A stretch of 64,000 nt of DNA, taken from positions 1 through 64,000 of IMG/VR virus record IMGVR_UViG_3300021963_000080; one strand, given 5' to 3'. Shown piece after piece: positions 21,620-32,492 of the stretch (position 1 is its first letter; every line of letters begins with the position of its first letter). The notes beneath the pieces are model-generated. The model searched no databases. It was not told the origin of the DNA and saw nothing but the letters and a program-made list of their open reading frames with translations. Source of the DNA: a virus. The position numbers were made by a program, and so were the translations under genes.

Positions 21620-21649
21620 CTACTAAAGAAACCGCATGAAACCAGGCTG

Positions 21650-26322: not shown

Positions 26323-26496
26323 ATGGTTTTTGATGAGATAACGATTGAAGAAGATCCACAGTACGAAGCATATCAGCTTCAGCTGGAATATCAGCAGTAC
26401 TTGGAGTCAGATGAGTTCATTGATGAGATAAACGCAGAGTTGCAAATTATCTCTCAACAAGAAAAAGAACTCAACTCTGTTGACTTCATTGTTTAA
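26323..26496 (+). CDS. Small acidic protein
   Basis: 57 residues rich in Glu, Gln and Tyr (YEAYQLQLEYQQYLESDEF). A ribosome site AGGGGAACGA precedes it. The next promoter lies inside its last codons. Unknown. Confidence 0.55.
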   Translation: MVFDEITIEEDPQYEAYQLQLEYQQYLESDEFIDEINAELQIISQQEKELNSVDFIV

Positions 26497-26508
26497 TTCA
26501 GGGATAAT
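26480..26508 (+). promoter_or_regulatory. Promoter cassette, copy 7 (divergent sequence)
   Basis: TTGACT, 17 bp, GATAAT. It overlaps the end of the previous gene and precedes the ATG at 26532; it is the likely driver of the RNA at 26682. Confidence 0.7.
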
Positions 26509-26531: not shown

Positions 26532-26681
26532 ATGCGATTCGAAGATATCGTTAAAGTGTTGATGGGCGAAGCCCAAGCGGTTGTGGATGCAGTGGAAGCT
26601 GCGCTGCAGTCTGATGTGACACAGTCACGCGTCTATAATAAGGGCGTGTTGGCTATGCAGGTTGAGTTCCAACCAAAATGA
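26532..26681 (+). CDS. Small hypothetical protein
   Basis: 49 residues (starts MRFEDIVKVLMGEAQ, ends AMQVEFQPK) with a GGAAAGGAAATAG ribosome site. It lies between promoter copy 7 and the large RNA. Unknown. Confidence 0.55.
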   Translation: MRFEDIVKVLMGEAQAVVDAVEAALQSDVTQSRVYNKGVLAMQVEFQPK

Positions 26682-27117
26682 CGTAGAGCGAGCTCGTCAA
26701 CTCGCAAAGCCTTAGCCTATCGGGAGATACGCGACAGGCACTATATTGAAGTGCTCTTGTAAAGCTAGATGCGTGCGCGCATATGTGGAGAGTATTTCAA
26801 TATGGGTTACCAACTCCAGTAGGGAGTATGCTAGGTACAATGTGATCGACGGATCGCGCCTGAGCGTACTTCATGAAGCCACCCGACGGTGCTGGAACAA
26901 GTTGGCGCGTAATGTGGACCAAACCTAATCGCAAGACGATTGCGTGAGAAGCTGGATGGAGTTCCAGAACGGTTAGGCCACCCCGTATTGATTAATCCGC
27001 AAGGAGAGACCGGGATATCCGGCACCAGTGGGCAGACTGGTGAATTTACCACTTTTTCCCCCGCCTTGATTTGTCAAGGCCTTCTCAGCCCCCGCATTCG
27101 CGGGGGTCTTTTTTTGT
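26682..27117 (+). ncRNA. Candidate large structured RNA (about 430 nt) with its own terminator
   Basis: The stretch has no convincing ORF, is richer in G+C than its neighbours, and is full of pairings: GCGAG/CTCGC, GCACT/AGTGC, ATGCG/CGCAT, ACTCC/GGAGT, long-range CGCGCC (26855 area) with GGCGCG (26904 area), GTGG..CCTAA with TTAGG..CCAC enclosing AATCG/CGATT and CTGGA/TCCAG hairpins, ACCAGT/ACTGGT, and GCCTTGA/TCAAGGC. It ends in an ideal terminator. It does not contain recognisable group I intron, RNase P or tRNA signatures. Class unknown; giant phage RNAs of GOLLD or ROOL type are only a loose comparison. Confidence 0.6.
27088..27116 (+). terminator. Rho-independent terminator of the large RNA
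   Basis: CCCCCGC, loop ATTC, GCGGGGG, then TC and seven T. It is followed at once by promoter copy 8, so the RNA unit is cleanly bounded on the right. Confidence 0.85.
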
Positions 27118-27118
27118 G

Positions 27119-27147
27119 TTGACCTTTTATCGGAAATAAAGGACAAT
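27119..27147 (+). promoter_or_regulatory. Promoter cassette, copy 8
   Basis: TTGACC, 17 bp, GACAAT, then GGGGTCATAGTTTGAAAAAA and GGGAG before the ATG at 27179. Confidence 0.8.
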
Positions 27148-31640: not shown

Positions 31641-31659
31641 GGGGGCGTTGCCCCCTTTT
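31641..31659 (+). terminator. Rho-independent terminator of the DUF932 gene
   Basis: GGGGGC, loop GTT, GCCCCC, then TTTTCGTTTTT. Clean hairpin and U-tract. Confidence 0.85.
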
Positions 31660-31688
31660 CGTTTTTGTGGTATCATACTGGATAAATA
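31648..31688 (+). promoter_or_regulatory. Possible promoters of the tmRNA
   Basis: TTGCCC (31648), 17 bp, TATCAT (31671-31676) is a weak sigma70 match that overlaps the terminator. GATAAATA (31681-31688) matches the T4 late octamer; its start point would be about 31694, just where the acceptor piece begins. Either or both could be used. Confidence 0.4.
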
Positions 31689-31693
31689 AAGAT

Positions 31694-31758
31694 ATTGTTG
31701 TAATCCCTTCAAAGCGAAGGAATTCTGGACGTGGGTTCGACTCCCACCAGGTCCACCA
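31694..31758 (+). ncRNA. ssrA: tmRNA acceptor piece
   Basis: It contains TAATCCC, which can pair with AGGGTTA of the coding piece (P2), a CCTTC/GAAGG hairpin, the T-arm and an encoded CCA at 31756-31758. The 5' end is inferred from the P2 pairing. Confidence 0.8.
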
Positions 31759-31924
31759 GAAAGAGTATTATAGTGGGTTCGCAAGTATGAGTCGCATTCT
31801 AAAGAGTGCCCTTGAACTGGATATAGTATTCTTCCTAATGGGCCTGCCATGGTTTCGACAGGGTTAGATAGCAGAGACGGCAACACGGTAGGCGATGACC
31901 GTAAATCAAGCAAAATTAATAACT

Positions 31925-31957
31925 GCAAACGATGAGTTATTCCTAGCAGCTGCTTAA
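31925..31957 (+). other. tmRNA tag reading frame: ANDELFLAAA
   Basis: GCA AAC GAT GAG TTA TTC CTA GCA GCT GCT TAA. With the alanine from charging, the tag is AANDELFLAAA. It keeps the ANDE start and a non-polar Ala-Ala end typical of ClpXP degrons. AGCAAAA (31909) and TTTTGCT (31972) can form the P5 stem around it. Confidence 0.92.
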
Positions 31958-31976
31958 TTGCACTGCATGAGTTTTG

Positions 31977-32006
31977 CTAGTTGAACTTGGAAACAGAATC
32001 AACTAG
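31977..32006 (+). other. 3' hairpin of the tmRNA coding piece
   Basis: CTAGTTGA (31977-31984) pairs with TCAACTAG (31999-32006), an uninterrupted 8-bp stem. It likely marks the end of the mature coding piece. Confidence 0.7.
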
Positions 32007-32039
32007 CCATTATGTTTAATAACAAAAAAGGTATTTTTT

Positions 32040-32492
32040 ATGAAATTGAAATTAGCATTAGTTATTGCCTTGCTTACTACATCCGGCATTGCATCAGCAA
32101 TCGAAGTAGGTATCAACGCAGGCCGCTCATTCACTGGTACTGATCGTAACAACACCGGTATCACAATTGGCCAAAAGACTGGCGCAGTTGGAATTGAAGC
32201 TGGGTTTGATGCATTCCGTAGTGGTGTAGATCAAAACCGTTGGTCATTGATCGGCTCCTATGATGTTACTAAAGTTGCTGGCACAACCGTTGCTGTTAAA
32301 GCCGGCGGTGCATGGCTAGACAACAAAGGTACGACAAGTGATGGCTACACCGCTCTTGTTGGTGCTGGTGCATCATACCCACTATCTAAACAATTAGCAT
32401 TGACTGCTGACTATAAATATCAGATAGGTCAAAAGCGAGTAGATCAATTCAACGGTAGCAACGTTACTGCTGGCTTGAAGTATTCGTTCTAA
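32040..32492 (+). CDS. Phage-encoded outer-membrane beta-barrel protein
   Basis: 150 residues. Signal peptide MKLKLALVIALLTTSGIASA, then alternating strands (GVNAGRS-type repeats, WSLIGSYDVTKVAGTTVAVK, LALTADYKYQIG) and a terminal Phe (AGLKYSF) as needed for Bam-dependent insertion. Size suits an 8-strand OmpX/Ail/Lom-like barrel. In lysogenic phages such proteins alter host surface or block superinfection; here the role is unknown. It directly follows the tmRNA. Confidence 0.75.
   Translation: MKLKLALVIALLTTSGIASAIEVGINAGRSFTGTDRNNTGITIGQKTGAVGIEAGFDAFRSGVDQNRWSLIGSYDVTKVAGTTVAVKAGGAWLDNKGTTSDGYTALVGAGASYPLSKQLALTADYKYQIGQKRVDQFNGSNVTAGLKYSF

Follow-up and report, generated by a model that had tools for sequence, protein, structure and literature searches.

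The window, a 64,000-nucleotide stretch of viral DNA (positions 1 to 64,000 of IMG/VR record IMGVR_UViG_3300021963_000080), possesses at positions 26797-26991 of the + strand the conserved core of a structured non-coding RNA whose family, found in phages, is uncatalogued. Taken as family and structure alone, this assignment is almost certain. Computation established the family and its structure, and showed that it is fused to tRNAs and can persist without one. The whole statement, in which this tRNA-fused structured RNA is also processed and plays a trans-acting role, is given about even weight. The family and its CCA-pairing closing helix appear to be new; the kind to which they belong, structured phage RNA at tRNA islands, is already known.

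Identification and covariation of the RNA family

Region 26682-27117 had been proposed to hold an undescribed large structured RNA without credible ORF, richer in GC and closed by a strong terminator. It opens directly after the stop codon of a 49-aa ORF and ends, as proposed, in a strong intrinsic terminator (27088-27115, + strand). Its + strand overlaps only mechanical ORFs of 60 aa or less, and its GC content of about 0.50 exceeds the 0.41-0.45 of most neighbouring windows. The minimum free energy of the region is -163 kcal/mol (z = -4.0), a value reached by none of 100 dinucleotide shuffles.

Relatives were sought by fetching IMG/VR loci around two neighbouring proteins and comparing the RNA locally. 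The first three loci with a weakly similar block (L144, L152 and L160) lay inside tRNA arrays, and DNA patterns derived from this block gave 50, 74 and 88 viral loci. The family is present in about 120 viral contigs. Alignment of 56 sequences of less than 90% identity contained 46 invariant columns, and RNAalifold predicted 42 pairs, 31 of them with compensatory changes. The structure was derived from averaged pair probabilities and the pairs were counted on 43 sequences with the window left out. In this set 88% of the cells are paired and both sides change at 45 of the 64 pairs; the covariation score is 0.443, against 0.11 or less for slid partners and 0.18 for shuffled partners. Thus the homologue search and covariation test suggested with the original prediction supported it, the homologues keeping their pairings by compensatory changes.

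The covariance model R1 was built from the same 43 sequences, again without the window. Its sole match in the 64 kb is to 26797-26991 of the window, at 119.6 bits (E 9e-40). Across the fetched loci, members scored between 76 and 206 bits, the next best match had 17.3 bits and everything else remained below 18. Among 99 distinct members, 90.7% of the cells pair and 48 of 64 pairs change on both sides, in an alignment fitted to the model.

An Rfam scan had also been suggested as a check. Whole-library scans of the window with Rfam 15 gave no family at gathering score in the region, hence no strong match to a known class, and scans of the members L144, L229 and L262 likewise gave nothing at gathering score, ROOL and OLE included. 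The sub-threshold candidates anti-hemB (E 0.0004, 22 bits below gathering) and sroD were rejected, as they fall on the 3' hairpins and terminator or on the opposite strand, outside the core. No family copy was found by two DNA-pattern scans of 85,000 prokaryote genomes, whose strict patterns may miss a few. By blastn, no match was obtained with the window RNA against phage isolates, with the window core against plasmids, or with three core queries of different subtypes against 50,697 phage records. The literature search, which covered open-access journals and a minority of preprints, found no description of this RNA.

Secondary structure of the core

The core of the family measures about 200 nt and comprises the helices P1 to P8, of which the long P1 closes it; many unpaired bases in its junctions are invariant. 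The originally supposed RNA of about 430 nt therefore shrinks to a conserved unit of about 200 nt, the remainder being a leader and 3' hairpins. With the outer P1 pairs counted in (TGTGGA 26784-26789 with TCCGCA 26996-27001), the RNA of the window extends from 26784 to 27001, and the 5' strand of P1 within the core (UCAAUAUGGG, 26797-26806) pairs with CCCGUAUUGA at 26982-26991. Folded alone, the window core takes the family architecture with all helices P1-P8 kept, and the predicted probability of P1 without the leader is 0.999.

Inside P1 follow P2 (CCAA 26810-26813 with UUGG 26902-26905) and P3 (CCAGU 26816-26820 with GCUGG 26891-26895). Both are nearly invariant across the family, and P3 is invariant in all aligned relatives. 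P4 (26823-26872) is a long, strongly covarying hairpin with a conserved GACGG apical loop, which across the family is either GACGG or GCCGN. The segment 26910-26916 consists of an invariant UAAUGU and then G (A in 5%), of which UAAU is single-stranded and the rest enters P5 (GUG 26914-26916 with CAC 26979-26981). P5, with the family consensus GUG:CAY, is paired in 100 of 100 relatives. P6 to P8 differ by subtype. In the window, P6 is formed in the family register by AACC (26922-26925) and GGUU (26971-26974) and covaries as AACC:GGTT in 13 sequences of the same subtype; P7 is the hairpin CGCAA-GACGA-UUGCG (26930-26944), whose stem covaries strongly, and P8 the hairpin CUGGA..UCCAG (26952-26967). 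Three unpaired stretches vary hardly or not at all: UU after P1, CAnGAA after P4 and UAAU before P5.

Two long-range pairings had been suggested before any relatives were known. One survives in part: in GTGG..CCTAA/TTAGG..CCAC, the outer GTG/CAC is P5, while the inner CCTAA/TTAGG is out of register with AACC:GGTT. The other, CGCGCC/GGCGCG, was rejected. Its six pairs form in 65, 70, 35, 8, 56 and 85% of the relatives that have letters there, and its strands belong to the conserved P4 and the P2 flank.

Fusion of the core to tRNA 3' ends

The context of the core was counted in 100 non-redundant members with enough upstream sequence. The RNA starts at the exact 3' CCA end of a tRNA in 86 of them. 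The original prediction spoke of a phage operon, yet most members of the family sit in tRNA arrays and not in mRNA operons. The linked tRNAs are mostly Glu-UUC (76) and Gln-UUG (7), with one each of Ile-GAU, Ser-UGA and Glu-CUC; two further members appeared tRNA-linked by eye but were not called. In 85 of the 86, a UGG at the distal end of P1 pairs with the tRNA CCA. In ten members a short hairpin replaces the tRNA, and the outer pairs of P1 then resemble CACU:AGUG rather than CCA:UGG. In L214 the core has no tRNA and lies directly behind a sigma70 promoter (TTGACT-N17-TATAAT) placed just before P1. The tRNA-CCA fusion is thus typical of the family and not defining, the window copy being without it.

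Short hairpins of the form CCATATAAAAACACATTR..YARTGTGTTTCTATATGG, with an AU-rich stem similar to P1, were observed in L294, L198, L264, L283 and many other loci. Their 5' strand begins with CCA, often that of a tRNA, and their loops vary from 27 to 60 nt. In related phages such shorter hairpins follow many tRNA CCA ends, and the core is therefore to be counted among several inserts that share a tRNA-trailer hairpin. Leaders resembling GTTCTTTAAAAATTT were found just upstream of the core in the tRNA-less L167, L172, L191 and L234; these resemble the boxA antitermination sites of rRNA operons.

Possible function of the RNA

We infer that the RNA is expressed and stable, that it is processed from its transcript and that it acts in trans. 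Host RNases would cut it out of a long transcript, with P1 as the processing and protecting stalk; in most phages, P1 includes the CCA of the tRNA, paired with UGG. Once excised, the stable folded RNA would act in trans while the phage infects its host. In the processing stalks of rRNA and tRNA precursors, a long perfect helix closes around a structured RNA within a polycistronic stable-RNA transcript and is cut by RNase III. P1 of the new family differs from them in enclosing a conserved non-ribosomal core, and its cleavage is putative. Two observations favour a trans-acting RNA: natural versions retain the core after loss of the tRNA, and the bare hairpins suggest that a CCA can be sequestered without it.

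A cis role in tRNA maturation could explain the linkage in 86% of the members equally well. This is the main rival, rather unlikely in our judgement: by locking the CCA in P1, the element would control or perform removal of the 3' trailer, either as a ribozyme or as a substrate of RNase III or RNase E. The exact abutment on the CCA, the CCA:UGG pairing for tRNA-Glu, Gln, Ser and Ile and the similar AU-rich short hairpins behind the CCA of many other tRNAs in these phages all fit with it. However, the window and a dozen other members keep the core without adjoining tRNA, no tRNA was found in the whole record of the window, and the bare hairpins again suggest a core unneeded for holding the CCA. 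A precedent is given by the theta ribozymes, for which a comparable role is proposed; they are structured RNAs located directly at phage tRNA 3' ends, within 5 nt (PMC10879173). They are small, HDV-like and found mostly in gut phages, and only 4.5% of their tRNAs have an encoded CCA (PMC10879173). The new family differs in being larger, in sitting on an encoded CCA and in having the CCA paired inside a helix. A theta ribozyme has its cleavage site at the tRNA 3' end with G1 starting P1. The present elements start at the CCA, and the helix runs on through it. In many members P1 is unbroken across the supposed cleavage point, unlike in HDV-like ribozymes.

The trans-acting reading may also be extended to a class of composite particles, a proposal which we regard as tentative and somewhat short of an even chance. 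As P1 continues from the 3' end of the tRNA, tRNA and RNA would form one particle, in which the tRNA or its stand-in hairpin, as 5' partner, would deliver, protect or regulate the trans-acting RNA. The window copy would be an escapee with a strand-exchanging leader, and the arrays would hold at least three further undescribed helix-closed families.

Organization and history of the window locus

A sigma70-like promoter (TTGACT-N17-GATAAT, 26480-26508) precedes the tiny gene, the 49-aa ORF (26532-26681) with a purine-rich ribosome site; an alignable C-terminus of this ORF was seen by eye at the same place in the close relative L008. No further promoter-like site was found on the + strand between this promoter and the terminator. 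As 26480-26508 is the nearest upstream promoter-like site, the RNA is most likely the 3' end of that small transcript. Lying directly 3' of the ORF stop, it is probably the 3' UTR of the ORF or processed from it. A riboswitch or 5' leader element was rejected because the RNA sits behind its gene, ahead of the terminator.

The region begins with a 5' domain (26682-26739) containing the hairpins 26688-26705 and 26709-26739, which is present at the same site in L008 with 72-75% identity. Downstream of the core, three hairpins (27010-27022, 27023-27042 and 27063-27080) lead to the terminator, and L008 keeps only the last of them. The fresh promoter noticed at once behind the terminator (27119-27147) is real as sequence. 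It is, however, one of at least six repeated promoter elements in the genome, belongs to the next gene and lies outside the RNA. Copies of this promoter/leader repeat (TTGACCTTTTT..GACAATGG..TTTGAAAAAGGG) were located at 21648, 23482, 24411, 25442, 26263 and 27117 of the window.

No tRNA is found next to the window copy or elsewhere in its 86.5-kb record, which has only a permuted tmRNA. This phage-encoded two-piece tmRNA (31651-32048) is of betaproteobacterial type with the tag ANDELFLAAA; ARAGORN called tmRNAs in L008, L010, L011 and L023 too. In the tree of cores, the window branches with the tRNA-linked L220 and L227 (support 0.995) and not with the remaining tRNA-less members, which indicates two or more separate losses of the tRNA linkage. 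The same locus consists of leader, hairpin and terminator in L008 and L010; in L011 the leader hairpin is accompanied by a tRNA-Glu and a second hairpin. All three close relatives lack the core both at this locus and in their records, which makes it dispensable for phages of this type. The most likely history, which we infer from these comparisons, is the insertion of a tRNA-linked core into this locus. The window copy has left its tRNA and now probably belongs to the 3' UTR of a tiny gene, where it has a terminator of its own.

A competing leader fold

The window leader contains the strand S0 (ACTATATTGAAGTGCTC, 26740-26756), which can form an alternative 18-bp hairpin with S1 (26788-26805) around an inner hairpin (GATGCGTGCGCGCAT, 26768-26782). 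S1 also supplies the 5' side of P1, so S0:S1 and P1 are mutually exclusive. With predicted energies of -163.0 and -159.7 kcal/mol, respectively, the S0:S1 hairpin comes out 3.3 kcal/mol better than the family fold, and the window copy may therefore be a misfolded, a switched or a decaying one. Such a leader, sharing S1 with P1, is possible in all ten of the hairpin-led relatives without tRNA. Hence in both departures from tRNAs a leader hairpin competes with P1 for one strand.

It was considered whether the RNA is a switch, in which S1 would pair with either S0 or S2 (P1) and toggle between a leader hairpin and the closed fold. The closeness of the two exclusive folds in energy is consistent with this, as is the leader energy, which does not exceed the 5% level of shuffles in nine out of ten hairpin-led relatives. 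On the other side, the fold with P1 is the predicted minimum in nine of these ten, so the leader may be only a transient folding intermediate, and the tRNA-linked members are without the S0 strand (mean -5.5 against -5.2 for shuffles). A switch as the function of the family is improbable; the S0:S1 leader itself may be a switch or a folding intermediate.

Improbable origins and comparison with known phage RNAs

A non-functional spacer, a mobile inverted-repeat element or an unrecognised coding sequence is very improbable. It is true that P1 forms a long inverted repeat and that hairpins of this sort hold inserts of several kinds in the arrays. Against this stand the compensatory changes and invariant unpaired bases across 43-100 sequences. 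G-U wobbles are conserved in P1, which points to pairing at the RNA level and not to a DNA inverted repeat, and the record of the window has one strong R1 copy, so the element is not a proliferating repeat. The indels and compensatory changes of the family alignment are typical of RNA and not of codons.

A divergent member of GOLLD, ROOL or the T4 small stable RNAs C and D can be practically dismissed: the setting in phage tRNA islands is shared, but no Rfam family reaches gathering score, R1 with filters off gives 6.8 bits or less in the tRNA region of T4, where RNA C and RNA D (species 1 and 2) lie, and in 16 of 20 phages with the family the GOLLD model matches nothing at E up to 10.

GOLLD (RF02032), considered as an identity of the core and rejected, had no match in the record of the window or overlapping the cores of relatives. 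The only GOLLD match above cut-off is a separate element (L273:1501-1966, 201 bits) about 0.8 kb downstream of the new core in one jumbo phage of 367 kb. GOLLD and ROOL resemble the new family as structured phage RNAs near tRNA islands, the function of each being without assignment. They show no similarity to it in sequence or model; the new core has only about 200 nt, and its closing helix joins it to the tRNA CCA. In GOLLD, tRNAs can occur within the linker (PMC12286853). T4 RNA C and RNA D (139 and 119 nt) are likewise small stable RNAs in a phage tRNA cluster, and rnaD starts within two bases of tRNA-Arg.

Several structured RNAs are known from phage tRNA islands (T4 RNA C and D, GOLLD, ROOL and theta ribozymes), mostly without known function. 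The new family is compact and strongly covarying, and its closing helix, which takes in the tRNA CCA, directly links such RNAs to the processing or use of tRNA. Being small, with invariant junction bases and natural tRNA-free versions, it is tractable for structure and function work, and the alignment and R1 model make it searchable in metatranscriptomes.

Other RNAs of the tRNA arrays

A second uncatalogued RNA of about 115 nt, Module C, was observed 3' of the core in tRNA arrays (L262:2096-2213 on the - strand and 18 others, alignment A4). Both sides change at 21 of its 27 predicted pairs in 31 sequences. It has no Rfam match, and its model R2 found no match in the record of the window or in the T4 region. 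A relation to T4 RNA D, suggested by eye from a shared GUAAG..CCUGAGUAA, was rejected on this ground. A third helix-closed RNA of about 150 nt, Module B (L144:2216-2375), has no Rfam match and shows both-side changes at 21 of 39 pairs in 18 sequences. Module D, also helix-closed and without Rfam match, has about 200 nt and lies between the core and tRNA-Tyr in L229 (6048-6250), and is found in L183, L227 and L267 as well. A block of the L008 RNA (L008:5655-5754) has a 77% match to sequence near tRNAs in L106, L178, L229 and L233.
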